Under the pieces are notes generated by a model. It ran no database searches and was not told the origin of the DNA. It saw only the letters and a program-made list of their open reading frames with translations. A program made the position numbers and the translations under genes. This document shows, piece by piece, positions 6,380 to 13,027 of a stretch of DNA of 49,173 nucleotides. Source of the DNA: Crocinitomicaceae bacterium (GTDB lineage Bacteria; Bacteroidota; Bacteroidia; Flavobacteriales_D; Crocinitomicaceae); NCBI GenBank assembly GCA_024639405.1, contig JAHEIL010000008.1, forward strand, positions 1 through 49,173, given 5' to 3'. How positions within the stretch are numbered: the first letter of the stretch is position 1; every line of letters starts with the position of its first letter.

Positions 6380-6414
6380 AAATCCCTCAATCATTTGGTT
6401 GAGGGATTTTTTTT
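6380..6414 (+). terminator. Rho-independent terminator of gcvH
   Basis: An 11-bp perfect inverted repeat (AAATCCCTCAA / TTGAGGGATTT) with an eight-base loop is followed by a run of eight or more T. It begins about 20 bases after the gcvH stop. Confidence 0.9.
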
Positions 6415-6449: not shown

Positions 6450-7337
6450 TTAATAGTTGGATGTTGCACCACCAACATTTTCAATGGGGTGCCAAATTGT
6501 TTTAATCTCTTGAACATCTGAAATGTAATGAAGCCCTTGTGCATCGGCTTTTTTCCAATCTGTTGAATAGGCAAAAACACGTTTCACATTCAACACTGCA
6601 TTTTCTTGAATTTCTTTTAATTTCAATGGATCACTTCCACCATAAACGAGTGCATTCACATCCATGTGAGTTGACAACGTTGGAGCCATTTCATCCGTTG
6701 AACCGGTTAAAATATTGATAACACCACCTGGAACATCAGAAGAATGTAAAACTTCTGCAAACGTAACAGCGCACAATGGCAACTTTTCAGATGCTAAGAC
6801 AACAACTGTGTTTCCACCGCAAATTACTGGTAAGACCAATGAAACTAATCCAATTAAAGAGCTATTTTCTGGTGCAATTATTCCAACAACTCCCATAGGT
6901 TCAGCAACAGAGAAATTAAAATGAGAAGAAGCAACTGGATTCACAGAACTAACAATTACTTGGTATTTATCACACCAACCAGCATAATACACGATGCGAT
7001 CAATGGCCAAATTCACTTCTGATTCTGCAGCTTGTTTACTTGAACCTTGAAATTGCAACTCTTCCACGAATTGTGCTTTGCGTCCTTCCAACATTTCTGC
7101 AATTCGGTACAAAATTTGTCCGCGGTTAAATGCAGAACGTTCAGACCAAGATCCAACTGCTTTTCGTGCTGCAACAACTGCATTTCGTACATCCTTTCTG
7201 GAAGACAAGCAAATATTGCCAAGTACCTTTCCTTCTTTATTTACAGGAGAGTAATAACGCCCCGATTCTGTTCGAGGGAATTGACCTCCGATGTATATTT
7301 TATACGTTTTAACTATTTCCAAACGACTCATTTTCAA
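6450..7337 (-). CDS. Non-catalytic ALDH-like protein, resembling the ALDH16 C-terminal domain
   Basis: This 295-residue protein is homologous to the N-terminal NAD-binding part of aldehyde dehydrogenases ('YKIYIGGQFPRTESGRYYSPV', 'AVVAARKAVGSWSERSAFNRGQILYRIA' region, 'GVVGIIAPENSSLIG', 'PGGVINILTGS') but stops before a catalytic domain. The catalytic Cys and general-base Glu motifs are missing, and the conserved 'PWNFP' is replaced by 'PENSS'. It starts nine bases after the stop of the full-length aldehyde dehydrogenase. Bacterial ALDH16 enzymes are known to carry an extra C-terminal Rossmann-plus-beta-flap domain that mimics the classic ALDH dimer partner. I infer that this gene is that domain as a separate polypeptide. 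The alternative is a decayed duplicate, but the frame is intact. Confidence 0.8.
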   Translation of the reverse strand: MKMSRLEIVKTYKIYIGGQFPRTESGRYYSPVNKEGKVLGNICLSSRKDVRNAVVAARKAVGSWSERSAFNRGQILYRIAEMLEGRKAQFVEELQFQGSSKQAAESEVNLAIDRIVYYAGWCDKYQVIVSSVNPVASSHFNFSVAEPMGVVGIIAPENSSLIGLVSLVLPVICGGNTVVVLASEKLPLCAVTFAEVLHSSDVPGGVINILTGSTDEMAPTLSTHMDVNALVYGGSDPLKLKEIQENAVLNVKRVFAYSTDWKKADAQGLHYISDVQEIKTIWHPIENVGGATSNY

Positions 7338-7346
7338 TACAATTGA

Positions 7347-8822
7347 TTATACAAACTTCACATAAGCCGCTAAGCCATGAACTCCACCCTCTCTTCCAAA
7401 ACCACTTTCTTTGTAACCGCCAAACGGCGATGTTGGGTCAAATTTATTGTAGGTATTTGCCCAAATTACTCCTGCGTTTAATTGATTCGCCATATTGAAA
7501 ATTCGCGCACCTTTCTCTGTCCAAACACCAGCTGCCAATCCATACGGTGAATTATTGGCTTTTTGAATGACCTCATCTATAGTTCGAAATGTTTGAATGG
7601 TTAAAACAGGTCCAAAAATTTCTTCTTGTGCTATTCGATTCGACTGTGCAACATTGGTAAACAATGTTGGCGGACAATAGAATCCTTTAGCAGGAATTGT
7701 ACAAGCCGGTTGATACATTTCTGCACCTTCCTGTTTTCCGATTTCAAGGTATTTAGTTATGGTTGCCAATTGTTCTTTTGAATTTATAGCCCCAATATCT
7801 GTGTTTTTATCCAATGGATTTCCAACATACAATGTTTTCAATCGTTCTTTCAATTTAGCAATCACTTTTTCAGCAACATTTTCTTGCACAAACAGGCGCG
7901 ATCCTGCACAGCAAACATGACCTTGATTGAAAAATATACCATTTACAATTCCTTCTACTGCTTGGTCAATTGGAGCGTCATCAAAAATAATATTTGCAGA
8001 TTTACCCCCCAATTCTAAGGTCAATTTTTTTGAAGTACCTGCAAGTGCCTTTTGAATAATTTTTCCAACATTCGTAGAACCTGTAAATGCAATTTTATTT
8101 ACATCAGAGTGATTCACAATAGCTGCACCAGTATCACCATAGCCTGTAACAATATTTACGACTCCAGCAGGTAACCCAGCAGCTTCAATGATTTCAGCTA
8201 ATTTTAATGCGGTTAAAGAAGTCGTTTCAGCAGGTTTTAATACCACTGTATTTCCAGCAGCCAATGCTGGAGCAATTTTCCAAGCAGCCATCAACAAAGG
8301 AAAATTCCAAGGAATAATTTGCCCTGCAACGCCGAGTGATTCCACTTTTCGATTGGGAAACGCATATTCTAATTTATCCGCCCAGCCAGCATAATAAAAG
8401 AAATGATTACACGCCAAAGGAACGTCGATGTCTCGGGCTTCTCGAATTGTTTTTCCTCCATCTAAGGTTTCGATTACTGCTAATTCTCTAGCGCGTTCTT
8501 GCATCAAGCGCGCAATGCGGTAAATGTATTTAGCGCGTTCAGCTGCAGGCATAATAGACCAGACTTCATTGTATGCTTTACGTGCTGCTTTTACAGCGAT
8601 ATCGACGTCTTTTTCAGAACCATAAGCCACTTCAGCAAGAACTTCTTCATTTGCTGGATTAATGCTTTGAAAGTATTTACCAGATGAAGGTTTTACCCAT
8701 TTTCCACCGATAAATAAATCGTATTTCTTTTTCAGTTGAATATGAGATGTGCCTTCCAATGATGGTGCATATTCCCATTCTACTTCTGGTATATTTTTAT
8801 TTGTAGCCATTTTCTTAGTCAA
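7347..8822 (-). CDS. NAD-dependent aldehyde dehydrogenase (ALDH16-like catalytic subunit)
   Basis: This 491-residue full-length aldehyde dehydrogenase oxidises an aldehyde to the acid with NAD(P)+. The general base is E270 in 'LELGGKSANI', and the catalytic cysteine is C304 in 'NQGHVCCAGSR'. 'IIPWNFPLLMAAWKIAPALA' and 'FTGSTNVGK' mark the cofactor site. The start overlaps the deoC stop by eight bases and the partner ALDH-like gene follows nine bases later, so the three genes form one operon. Acetaldehyde from the DeoC reaction is the likely substrate (inference from context). Together with the downstream truncated paralogue it has the two-part layout of ALDH16. Confidence 0.95.
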   Translation of the reverse strand: MTKKMATNKNIPEVEWEYAPSLEGTSHIQLKKKYDLFIGGKWVKPSSGKYFQSINPANEEVLAEVAYGSEKDVDIAVKAARKAYNEVWSIMPAAERAKYIYRIARLMQERARELAVIETLDGGKTIREARDIDVPLACNHFFYYAGWADKLEYAFPNRKVESLGVAGQIIPWNFPLLMAAWKIAPALAAGNTVVLKPAETTSLTALKLAEIIEAAGLPAGVVNIVTGYGDTGAAIVNHSDVNKIAFTGSTNVGKIIQKALAGTSKKLTLELGGKSANIIFDDAPIDQAVEGIVNGIFFNQGHVCCAGSRLFVQENVAEKVIAKLKERLKTLYVGNPLDKNTDIGAINSKEQLATITKYLEIGKQEGAEMYQPACTIPAKGFYCPPTLFTNVAQSNRIAQEEIFGPVLTIQTFRTIDEVIQKANNSPYGLAAGVWTEKGARIFNMANQLNAGVIWANTYNKFDPTSPFGGYKESGFGREGGVHGLAAYVKFV

Positions 8823-9735
8823 TTGAAAAATAATCTGGTGATTGATATACGCCTGTCTCGGCTTTCATAAGTTGCATTAACACATCATTTGCTAAACTAC
8901 TTGCTCCAAAACGAAACCATTCATTTGATAACCAAGCATTACCCAATACTTCTTTCACCATAACAAGGTAATGCAATGCAAGTTTTGAAGTTGAAATTCC
9001 ACCAGCAGGTTTCATACCAATCATCTTTCCGGTCGCCTCGTAATAATCTTTTATAGCCATCAACATGGTATACGTTACTTGCATCGTTGCTGCAGGTTGT
9101 ATTTTACCAGTCGAAGTTTTGATAAAATCTGCACCAGCCAAAATTGCAAGATCACTTGCTTTTCTGACATTGTCTAGGGTCAGTAATTCGCCCGTTTCAA
9201 GTATTACTTTCAAGCGCGCATTCCCACAAGCATCTTTGATTGCTGCAATTTCATCGAATACAAAACTATATTCTCCTGCTAAAAATTTACCACGAGAAAT
9301 AACCATATCAATTTCATCCGCCCCTTCATTTACTGCGAATGTTGTGTCAGCTAATTTCACAGCAAGAGGCGCTTGACCACTTGGGAAAGCAGTAGAGACT
9401 GAAGCAACGTTTACTTTAGAATTTAAAAGTGCACTCTTTGCAATTTTAACCATTGATGGATAAACACAAACCGCAGCAACTGTCGGTAGATTTGGTAATT
9501 CATCATGAAGGTGCATTGCTTTGTAACACATTTGTTGCACTTTTCCAGGCGAATCTTTTCCTTCTAAAGTTGTTAAATCAATCATATTTAAGGCCATTTT
9601 CAAAGCTTGAAGCTTACTGTCACCTTTAATACTCCTAGTTTGAAAACGAGCAACTCTTTCTTCAACACCAACCTTATCGATTGTTGGACTGTTAAAAAGA
9701 AGTTGATCTATAGATTGTTGTATATCTTTTTTCAT
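8815..9735 (-). CDS. deoC: Deoxyribose-phosphate aldolase
   Basis: DeoC cleaves 2-deoxyribose 5-phosphate to acetaldehyde and glyceraldehyde 3-phosphate, the last step of deoxynucleoside catabolism. The class I Schiff-base lysine is K206 in 'ADFIKTSTGK', and 'EIDMVISRG' and 'MKPAGGIST' are family motifs. At about 306 residues it is the longer DeoC form with an N-terminal extension. I prefer the ATG at 9735 to the one at 9741 because a TAAATTTG box (9743-9750) would start transcription at about 9738. It heads an operon with two ALDH-family genes, which suits removal of acetaldehyde. Confidence 0.95.
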   Translation of the reverse strand: MKKDIQQSIDQLLFNSPTIDKVGVEERVARFQTRSIKGDSKLQALKMALNMIDLTTLEGKDSPGKVQQMCYKAMHLHDELPNLPTVAAVCVYPSMVKIAKSALLNSKVNVASVSTAFPSGQAPLAVKLADTTFAVNEGADEIDMVISRGKFLAGEYSFVFDEIAAIKDACGNARLKVILETGELLTLDNVRKASDLAILAGADFIKTSTGKIQPAATMQVTYTMLMAIKDYYEATGKMIGMKPAGGISTSKLALHYLVMVKEVLGNAWLSNEWFRFGASSLANDVLMQLMKAETGVYQSPDYFSID

Positions 9736-9763: not shown

Positions 9764-9791
9764 GAATAAAAAAAGGCTCTTTCGAACCTTT
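9764..9791 (-). terminator. Rho-independent terminator after the MORN-repeat gene
   Basis: On the reverse strand AAAGGTTC and GAGCCTTT form an eight-pair stem (one G-U pair) around a five-base loop and are followed by a run of seven T. It lies about 20 bases past the stop of the MORN gene and upstream of deoC. Confidence 0.8.
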
Positions 9792-9809: not shown

Positions 9810-10715
9810 TTACAATTGACCATCAGAATGGTAAAAACCATTTTTGAATACCTTTACTTTTAATAGAATTCCGTCTTTGTCATATTCGTATACTTTCCCA
9901 TCCCACAATTGTCCATTTTTAAAGGTTCCATCTTGCCAAATTTCATCATTCGAATTGTACGTTTTATTGTAGCCATTTGGAACAAAAGCAATGCCTTTGG
10001 TTTTAGGAACTCCAATTTTAGGAGGAGGATTTTTAGAAACTACAGTTGGTATAGGTTTTTCAATAGATCGTTTGATGTCCAATTGTTCACTTTTCTCGAC
10101 ATTGCCCGTTGCGTCGTAAACAATTTTTTCTTTCACATCACCATTTTCGTAAAAACGAGTTGCATTTCCTACAGGATTTCCATTTTCTGCAATGTATTCA
10201 AACTCTAATTGTCCATTGGGATAATAGTGTTTAATTTTCCCAGACTCTTTGCCGGTTTCATTGTAAATTCCTTCATATTGAATAATACCCGTTTCGTAAT
10301 ATCTTTTTAGAGAATCAGAGTACTGGTTTTTGAAAAAATTGCCGCGCTCTTTGATTTTTCCGTTGGGATGGTATTTAATAAAATCACCTTGTGGACGATT
10401 ATTGATGTAAAATCCTTTTATTTTTGGCGTGATGCCATCAGGGTAAAACTTAATCCAAAAGCCTTCTTTACGGTCATCAACAAAAGTGCCTTCTTCAATT
10501 TTCCCATCTAAAGGGACTCCTTCAGCAGGTCGATCTTTACCAAAATAAATCCATTTCCCCTGTTTTTTTCCTTCAGCATCTTTTTGATTTATTTCAGTTT
10601 GATCGCCATTTTGAATAAAAGAATATGCAGAAATAGAAAAAAAATGAAGTAACACAACAAATGTGATAAACTTAAATATTTTGTTAAAAATAAAATAGTT
10701 TCTTGTAGTTTCCAT
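9810..10715 (-). CDS. Secreted MORN-variant repeat protein
   Basis: The 301-residue protein begins with a hydrophobic export segment (about residues 12-32). It then carries roughly seven MORN-variant repeats of about 20-24 residues with the pattern 'G.W..Y..(D/N)G....G.(Y/F)', for example 'KQGKWIYF', 'GFWIKFYPDG', 'GDFIKYHPNGKIKERG' and 'HYYPNGQLEFE', and a last partial repeat at the C-terminus. Such proteins are common in Bacteroidota and are often named YwqK-type; the biochemical role is unknown, probably protein or membrane contact in the envelope. A near-consensus promoter precedes it and a terminator follows, so it is a single-gene unit downstream of threonine dehydrogenase. Confidence 0.85.
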   Translation of the reverse strand: METTRNYFIFNKIFKFITFVVLLHFFSISAYSFIQNGDQTEINQKDAEGKKQGKWIYFGKDRPAEGVPLDGKIEEGTFVDDRKEGFWIKFYPDGITPKIKGFYINNRPQGDFIKYHPNGKIKERGNFFKNQYSDSLKRYYETGIIQYEGIYNETGKESGKIKHYYPNGQLEFEYIAENGNPVGNATRFYENGDVKEKIVYDATGNVEKSEQLDIKRSIEKPIPTVVSKNPPPKIGVPKTKGIAFVPNGYNKTYNSNDEIWQDGTFKNGQLWDGKVYEYDKDGILLKVKVFKNGFYHSDGQL

Positions 10716-11869: not shown

Positions 11870-13027
11870 ATGCCATTTTATCATAAATTAGGTAAATTTC
11901 CACACAAACGACACACCGTTTATCGCCAAGCGAATGGTGAATTATACCATGAACAACTTTTTGGTACAGTTGGTTTTGATGGGATGTCATGTTTAATGTA
12001 TCACATTAATCCTCCTACTGTTGTTAAAGAAGTGAGGGGTCAAAAAAATATTGCCCCAGAAATTGCTGACGGAATGTCTATGTCAATGCGCAGTTTAATG
12101 GGTGCCAATATAGAAGCAAAAGATGATTATATTGAAAGTCGTGTTCCCGTTTTGGTTAACAGCGATTGTTACATAGAATTAGCTGCTCCTAAAAAATCGA
12201 TGACAGACTATTTCTACAAAAATGCAGATGCAGATGAAATTATTTTCATTCATAAAGGATCAGGTAAATTAAAAACTCAATTGGGAAATATCGACTTTTC
12301 GTACGGTGATTATTTATTGATTCCAAGAGGTATGATATACCAAATGACTTTTGATAATGAAGACAATCGTTTGTTTATTGTACAATCATTTAATCCGGTA
12401 TATACACCAAAAAAATATCGAAACTGGTTTGGACAACTATTGGAACATTCTCCTTATTGCGAACGCGATATTCGTCCTCCTCATGAATTAGAAACACACG
12501 ATGAGAAAGGTGATTTTTTAATTCGCATAAAAAAACAGGATGTATTACATGATTACATTTATGGGTCTCATCCATTTGATGTTGTTGGTTGGGATGGATT
12601 TAATTATCCATATGCGTTTTCAATTCATGATTTTGAACCAATAACTGGGCGCGTACATTTACCTCCACCAATTCATCAGACTTTTGAAACGACTGGTTTT
12701 GTGTTGTGTTCGTTTGTTCCTCGTCTATATGATTATCATCCAGATGCAATTCCAGCGCCATACAACCATAGCAACATCGATTCTGATGAAGTTTTATATT
12801 ATGTTGATGGCGATTTCATGAGTCGTAACAACATTGAAAAAGGACAAATTACTTTGCATCCTGGCGGTTTGCCACATGGTCCGCATCCAGGTGCTTACGA
12901 ACGAAGTATTGGTAAAAAAGAAACAGAAGAATTAGCTGTGATGGTGGATACTTTCAAACCATTGAAAATGACCAAACAAGCATTAAATATTGAAGTAAAA
13001 GATTACAGTAAATCGTGGATTTTATAA
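11870..13027 (+). CDS. hmgA: Homogentisate 1,2-dioxygenase
   Basis: This Fe(II) enzyme opens the ring of homogentisate to maleylacetoacetate, the step after HPPD in tyrosine breakdown. The 385-residue cupin protein carries candidate iron ligands H300 and E307 in 'YNHSNIDSDEVLYY' and H336 in 'GGLPHGPHPG'; 'KGSGKLKTQLG' is the N-terminal cupin strand pair. It starts 'MPFYHKLGKFPHKRHTVYR', which is typical of the shorter bacterial form. The HPPD gene follows after 18 bases, so the two form an operon. The next enzymes of the route (maleylacetoacetate isomerase, fumarylacetoacetase) are not in the window. Confidence 0.95.
   Translation: MPFYHKLGKFPHKRHTVYRQANGELYHEQLFGTVGFDGMSCLMYHINPPTVVKEVRGQKNIAPEIADGMSMSMRSLMGANIEAKDDYIESRVPVLVNSDCYIELAAPKKSMTDYFYKNADADEIIFIHKGSGKLKTQLGNIDFSYGDYLLIPRGMIYQMTFDNEDNRLFIVQSFNPVYTPKKYRNWFGQLLEHSPYCERDIRPPHELETHDEKGDFLIRIKKQDVLHDYIYGSHPFDVVGWDGFNYPYAFSIHDFEPITGRVHLPPPIHQTFETTGFVLCSFVPRLYDYHPDAIPAPYNHSNIDSDEVLYYVDGDFMSRNNIEKGQITLHPGGLPHGPHPGAYERSIGKKETEELAVMVDTFKPLKMTKQALNIEVKDYSKSWIL

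Follow-up and report, generated by a model that had tools for sequence, protein, structure and literature searches.

In ordinary aldehyde dehydrogenase (ALDH) dimers, the hairpin and the C-terminal strand of each subunit rest on the catalytic domain of its partner. ALDH16 is an enigmatic family in which the use of an extra domain is unclear, and we know of no settled substrate for it. A bacterial fused member, from Loktanella, was reportedly the subject of a structure study by Liu and Tanner in 2019. In the Loktanella protein (PDB 6mvr/6mvs/6mvt/6mvu) a catalytic part is followed by a non-catalytic C-terminal Rossmann-plus-flap part, and tertiary contacts in fused ALDH16 are described as mimicking quaternary ones (PMC8160307). 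The same two parts are present as separate genes behind deoC in a 49,173-nucleotide stretch of a Crocinitomicaceae bacterium (contig JAHEIL010000008.1), referred to here as the window. We consider it reasonably probable (roughly 0.65) that the products of these ALDH genes form an ALDH16-type aldehyde dehydrogenase of two obligate subunits, most likely oxidizing acetaldehyde from DeoC; sequence, gene order, conservation, co-occurrence, phylogeny and complementary truncation are observed, and assembly, stoichiometry and substrate are inferred.

Other described systems resemble the window pair in part. Human ALDH16A1 belongs to the same family and is reported to lack catalytic residues (PMC8160307, PMC10650815); by this description it is a pseudoenzyme, whereas the large protein of the window has a complete catalytic part. 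Type B/C PutA carries a C-terminal domain with a beta-flap that is said to facilitate P5CDH (ALDH) activity (PMC5293562), but by the same description that domain lies within one large bifunctional proline chain. SPU metabolosome loci couple a DeoC-like aldolase to an aldehyde dehydrogenase for acetaldehyde; in those loci acetyl-CoA is possibly the product, made inside a microcompartment (PMC4207490), while the window enzyme is of ALDH16 type. Among the literature matches listed, which covered titles and abstract openings of non-subscription papers, neither a split ALDH16 nor an ALDH16 beside deoC was described.

The three genes were intact and consecutive on the minus strand, with deoC (deoxyribose-phosphate aldolase; 8815..9735, 306 amino acids (aa)) followed by a putative large catalytic subunit (7347..8810, 487 aa) and a putative small non-catalytic subunit (6450..7331, 293 aa). 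The gene calls bore out the original prediction, which had read deoC, a catalytic ALDH and a short non-catalytic ALDH half in a row, the frame of the last being intact. The large protein matched PF00171 at 557 bits (cut-off 23), and its best solved match was residues 13-476 of Loktanella ALDH16 6mvr (chain E-value 8.6e-167, best stretch 497 bits), compared with 434.5 bits (E 3.6e-129) for the best chain outside ALDH16. It contained Cys301, Glu266, Asn169 and Lys192, and in a residue alignment of 136 split large proteins, 140 small proteins and, from fused forms, 25 N-terminal halves and 26 C-terminal domains, all four were invariant in 136/136 split large proteins and 25/25 fused N-terminal halves. 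By computed position and this conservation, the catalytic cysteine and the general base correspond to the codons at 7908..7910 (Cys301) and 8013..8015 (Glu266) on the minus strand. The large protein thus appears to bear the whole active site together with the NAD site, and NAD-dependent aldehyde oxidation is predicted from its active-site residues.

The small protein matched PF00171 at 141 bits (cut-off 23). Its best solved match was again Loktanella ALDH16 (6mvu/6mvr), where the stretch of residues 501-764 scored 160.9 bits; the E-value of 5.5e-67 against the whole ALDH16 chain is the sum of two stretches. The next-best solved match was ALDH1L1 (132.4 bits, E 1.9e-37). The same fused protein is therefore the best solved match of both window proteins, each on its own part. 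The small protein lacks the catalytic domain and the NAD-binding lysine but retains the Rossmann core, the oligomerization hairpin and, towards the C-terminus, a strand-like motif (KTxWxP). At the catalytic Cys position the alignment showed a gap in 140/140 small proteins, and the Lys192 position was Lys in none of them (0/140) and in none of the fused C-terminal domains (0/26). The mention of retained lower motifs in the earlier description was loose, as Pfam Aldedh homology ends at residue 252 of 293.

A protein without a catalytic domain, of which one relative (G135) has broken copies, might be read as a decaying, functionless ALDH fragment. The ratio of nonsynonymous to synonymous polymorphism (pN/pS) of the small gene was 0.05-0.17 in three pairs, similar to deoC and to the large gene, which indicates that its frame is under purifying selection. 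With 56 invariant columns among 32 aligned small sequences and retention across phyla, decay is barely credible. When window positions 6453-8810 were compared with locus L059, synonymous divergence (dS) was 0.34 for the small gene and 0.87 for the large gene in the same genome pair; this inequality suggests recombination within the unit.

Phylogenetic analysis placed the small protein with the extra domain of ALDH16. In a 59-row tree the small proteins and the fused ALDH16 C-terminal domains formed one clade with 100/100 support, each of the two being a clade of its own (99/95 in both cases), and a 138-row quick tree recovered the joint clade with support 93. A tree holding the small protein together with the large one was rejected by the approximately unbiased (AU) test (p-AU 9.7e-6). 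By the trees and the AU test, the reading of the small protein as an ordinary ALDH fragment or a recent copy of its own large neighbour is rejected, in line with the expectation that it would not group with ordinary ALDH fragments. The large proteins grouped with the fused N-terminal halves, with a Shimodaira–Hasegawa-like approximate likelihood ratio test (SH-aLRT) value of 99 in the 138-row tree and support of 86/87 in the careful 59-row tree. In the quick tree the split large proteins formed one clade (97); in the 59-row tree, whose bootstrap had not settled, the fused halves were nested within the split large proteins beside Actinomycetota (100/94). Such nesting would favour later fusion, but the 138-row tree differs on the large proteins. 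Together with the pN/pS values and the varying frames and gaps of split pairs (below), the phylogeny indicates that the separation into two genes is real and old.

The large and small genes co-occur almost perfectly, also where they are unlinked. In a survey of 149 genomes (the window's own and 148 relatives), each searched with the small and with the large protein, both were present in 81 and both absent from 61; six of the seven discordant genomes were interrupted by contig ends, and one (G135) had broken pieces. Apart from these, no related genome had the large gene without the small one, a pattern that would have spoken against the original prediction. In Bacteroidota, the window's phylum by its named relatives, an even draw of 392 genomes (phylum labels of all draws being those of the named loci that served as centres) contained a small or fused form in 77, with a separate short frame in 72 and a long frame (806-1061 aa) in five. 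The large protein was detected (E 1e-165) in 76 of these 77 and in no other of the 392; the exception, G242, has a fused protein in which the match to the large part is broken in two. Small matches were found in 57/246 drawn Actinomycetota genomes, and 20/20 of those fetched were split. For the 240/246 that were also searched with the large protein, both were present in 55, neither in 182, and three were discordant: in G744 the pair, and in G685 deoC plus the large gene, were interrupted by a contig end, and G661 had an ordinary ALDH with no deoC or small gene in the 6 kb fetched. Pseudomonadota differed in form, with matches in 56/397 genomes comprising 55 long frames (768-889 aa; 21/55 fetched, 21/21 fused) and one short frame. 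In the three sets searched with both proteins (relatives, Bacteroidota and Actinomycetota), apparent cases of a large gene without a small one came down to contig ends, an ordinary ALDH (G661) and a broken copy.

The two-gene form is therefore widespread and not peculiar to this genome. Among the best 80 named loci, split forms occurred in records of Streptomyces albireticuli, Nocardioidaceae, Balneola, Rhodohalobacter, Pirellulaceae, Akkermansiaceae, Neomarinimicrobiota and Woeseiaceae. Of the three refuting conditions set out with the original prediction, the idea of a split ALDH16 withstood two, the tree and co-retention.

To compare gene order, 180 loci were fetched (L039-L218, not deduplicated), of which 139 were split pairs, 26 were fused and 15 were without a complete pair. 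Some of these 15 end at contig edges, and seven have a small gene with no large gene in the fetched stretch (L090, L105, L121, L122, L123, L205, L206). In the genomes of those seven loci and four close kin, 11 genomes in which the small gene is not right behind the large one, the large gene was present in 11/11: on a different contig in G161, G182 and G277, at a distance of 4-7 kb in G417, G452 and G526, and outside the fetched 3.4-5 kb upstream of the small gene in the remaining five, some of which may be contig breaks. Two fetched loci were unusual in other ways. In L140 (Bacteroidia SKW180) a divergent ALDH, with 54 bits to the large profile, precedes the small gene in place of the usual large one, and in L212 (G135:C6) both genes are in pieces, reflecting joint decay or poor assembly.

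A deoC gene lay upstream on the same strand in 26/26 fused loci and in 132/139 split loci. Four of the seven split loci without it have at most 240 bases upstream, and L159 has a deoC piece at its edge. The association was not shared by the six other ALDH loci of the window's own genome, where deoC was found at 0/6 (flanks up to 1.5 kb). A named fused example from Sinorhizobium medicae (L231, CP140910.1) has a DeoR regulator, deoC, an ALDH gene of 2,385 bases and RbsD/FucU, which makes it a fuller deoxysugar unit than that of the window.

Fused and split forms therefore share a position behind deoC. They differ in that the window pair, like the 139 fetched pairs, is encoded by two genes and not one chain, in that the split small proteins make up a clade separate from that of the fused domains, and in that the fused linker of ~18-50 residues has no single-chain counterpart in the window pair. 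The window pair resembles ALDH16 in its components and probably in how it acts, yet it departs from ALDH16 in the single-polypeptide feature.

Further evidence bearing on assembly came from the segments that ordinary ALDH subunits exchange. In the alignment, the hairpin segment of the large protein (K146-G160, 8331..8375, minus strand) was shortened to 15-16 residues in 136/136 split large proteins and to 13 in 25/25 fused ones. By the same measure the hairpin of the small protein (K122-G147, 6891..6968, minus strand) was full-length, at 26 residues in 140/140, with 23-24 in 26/26 fused C-terminal domains. Five other ALDHs had 19, 19, 23, 24 and 27 residues in this segment. The tail was counted in the 137/139 split large proteins with a GxGREGG motif: at most 14 residues followed the motif in 124/137, at most 19 in 134/137, and 46-59 in three, compared with 17, 25 and 31 in three paralogues from the window's own genome. 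The losses look complementary, with the large protein apparently combining the active site with a reduced flap and the small protein a flap with no catalytic site.

A reduced flap in the large protein and the lack of a catalytic domain in the small one together predict a one-way heterodimer, in which ALDH16 function would be achieved in trans. The large protein would supply the active site and the NAD site, and the small protein would supply the hairpin and the C-terminal strand-like motif to the large protein's catalytic domain, with exchange in this direction alone. One large and one small protein would be the equivalent of one fused ALDH16 chain, and the usual ALDH tetramer would have its counterpart in two such heterodimers. 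Assembly in trans is strongly suggested by the fused homologues behind deoC, by co-retention when the genes are unlinked and by the complementary losses.

Several observations weigh against this reading. The hairpin comparison involves five other ALDHs, and in two of these the segment, at 19 residues, is just 3-4 longer than in the large protein; the short tail is not universal, as the three split large proteins with 46-59 residues illustrate. Structure modelling did not reproduce the fused arrangement either. Two AlphaFold2 models were made of single read-through chains, one from the window with six residues between the proteins (alignment of 39 rows) and one from L120 with a longer spacer (21 rows). 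Neither was in the 6mvr arrangement: the window model had a predicted template modelling score (pTM) of 0.59, a template modelling (TM) score of 0.55 and a root-mean-square deviation (rmsd) of 19.6, and the L120 model had a pTM of 0.65, a TM score of 0.49-0.50 and an rmsd of 22, in both cases with a shallow alignment, an artificial linker and no fused control. Each part was folded in both models and the relative placement of the parts was not fixed; in the L120 model the predicted local distance difference test score (pLDDT) was below 50 at 423-520, where the catalytic part ends and the spacer follows. A VIA-align look at 50 rows held single ALDHs over model residues ~15-505 and was uninformative on the small part, and an alignment with separate small-protein rows was dropped, as MAFFT had placed them on the large half, judged by low identities. 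The failed ALDH16 placement is weak evidence, yet it lends no support to assembly.

These models leave room for a different arrangement, in which the large protein forms an ordinary ALDH oligomer by itself, leaving the small protein as a separate pseudoenzyme with another role, for example as a tether between DeoC and the ALDH or as a regulator. The 11 genomes that keep both genes with the small one not right behind the large one fit here too, since translational coupling is evidently not needed. Against this stand the fused forms, which unite exactly the large and small proteins, the near-perfect co-occurrence of the two, and the hairpin and tail of the large protein, the former shorter than in the five other ALDHs and the latter mostly shorter. 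On balance we regard independent function as unlikely, and a two-subunit enzyme as the better account.

The spacing of the two genes was also considered. The large stop codon (7347-7349) and a 15-base spacer to the small ATG occupy 7332..7349 on the minus strand, and the two genes are here in one frame with a single TAA between them; the near relative G006 is identical in spacing and frame. The nine-base gap of the original prediction holds if the small gene starts with the TTG at 7337, and becomes 15 bases with the ATG at 7331, which is also the start position of most homologues in the alignment. A shared frame with one stop could mean that the TAA is read through, or that it is a recent nonsense mutation, and that a single fused ALDH16 chain is what is actually made. 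However, the small gene possesses its own start codon, the frame was shared in 36/139 split pairs of the fetched loci compared with 46 expected (binomial p 0.07), and large-small gaps in these pairs ranged from an overlap of 82 bases (-82) to 1640 bases. Because frame and gap vary among split pairs, the shared frame in the window is best regarded as incidental; nonsense mutation or read-through was rejected as a general explanation on the same grounds, and for the window itself it is very improbable. In L099 and L101 an apparent further open reading frame (ORF) lies in the large-small spacer, the pair being kept despite the insertion, which again speaks against a single fused product; the product of this ORF presumably resembles a four-helix-bundle protein.

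Returning to the proposed two-subunit enzyme, acetaldehyde is its likely substrate, because DeoC yields acetaldehyde and its gene adjoins the ALDH genes. The window DeoC scored above the equivalog cut-off of TIGR00126 (173.8 bits compared with 117.3) and also matched PF01791; its best solved match was 5c2x (E 3.9e-46, residues 46-288), and ~45 extra N-terminal residues precede the part covered by that match. The products of DeoC are given as acetaldehyde and glyceraldehyde 3-phosphate (PMC6365646). In the proposed scheme, the acetaldehyde released by DeoC would be the substrate of the large-small pair.

Alternatively, the pair may form as proposed and act physiologically on something other than acetaldehyde from DeoC, a reading that overlaps with the preferred one on assembly. 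The substrate assignment rests on gene neighbourhood, and two split loci, L133 (3.1 kb) and L134 (2.1 kb), have no deoC in the upstream sequence given; both points count against it. In addition, the large protein was below the cut-off of every NCBIfam family among the 25 matches listed, including the acetaldehyde dehydrogenase ExaC (460 bits, cut-off 900). Set against these, fused and split forms alike usually adjoin deoC, in one phylum after another, and DeoC does yield acetaldehyde (PMC6365646). A different substrate is thus unlikely, although the most probable of the alternatives, and acetaldehyde from DeoC is retained as the likely one.

The surroundings of the three genes were examined with a consensus scan for terminators. 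A terminator-like stem-loop at 9772..9791 (minus strand) separates deoC from the gene upstream of it (9810-10715), and it suggests that deoC, the large gene and the small gene form their own transcription unit; it is one of eight terminator-like sites in the region, compared with 3.2 expected in shuffled sequences. Downstream of the small gene, gcvH is encoded on the opposite strand, and the same scan placed a second terminator-like stem-loop between gcvH (plus strand) and the 3' end of the small gene, at 6380..6409, with 13 pairs and a T run on the plus strand. Elsewhere in the window, 11870-13027 encodes a 385-aa protein weakly like homogentisate dioxygenase (68.6 bits, cut-off 510.75), adjoining a clear 4-hydroxyphenylpyruvate dioxygenase.

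For the ALDH16 family, we tentatively propose, at somewhat less than even odds, that the two-gene form is a separate and possibly older state, which would have arisen from a tandem ALDH duplicate sharing out catalysis and oligomerization flap between two proteins, so that one subunit became non-catalytic yet obligate; the fusion seen in ALDH16 of Proteobacteria and animals would have come later. As deoC neighbours both forms, acetaldehyde from deoxyribose 5-phosphate may, within this proposal, have been the original substrate of the family, and the common neighbour offers a concrete candidate substrate for ALDH16. A free-standing extra domain that is kept with its partner makes the role of that domain testable, by omitting or re-adding the small subunit. 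If the two-subunit reading is true, the pair would be a clean case in which a reciprocal homodimer interface became a one-way heterodimer by complementary domain loss.

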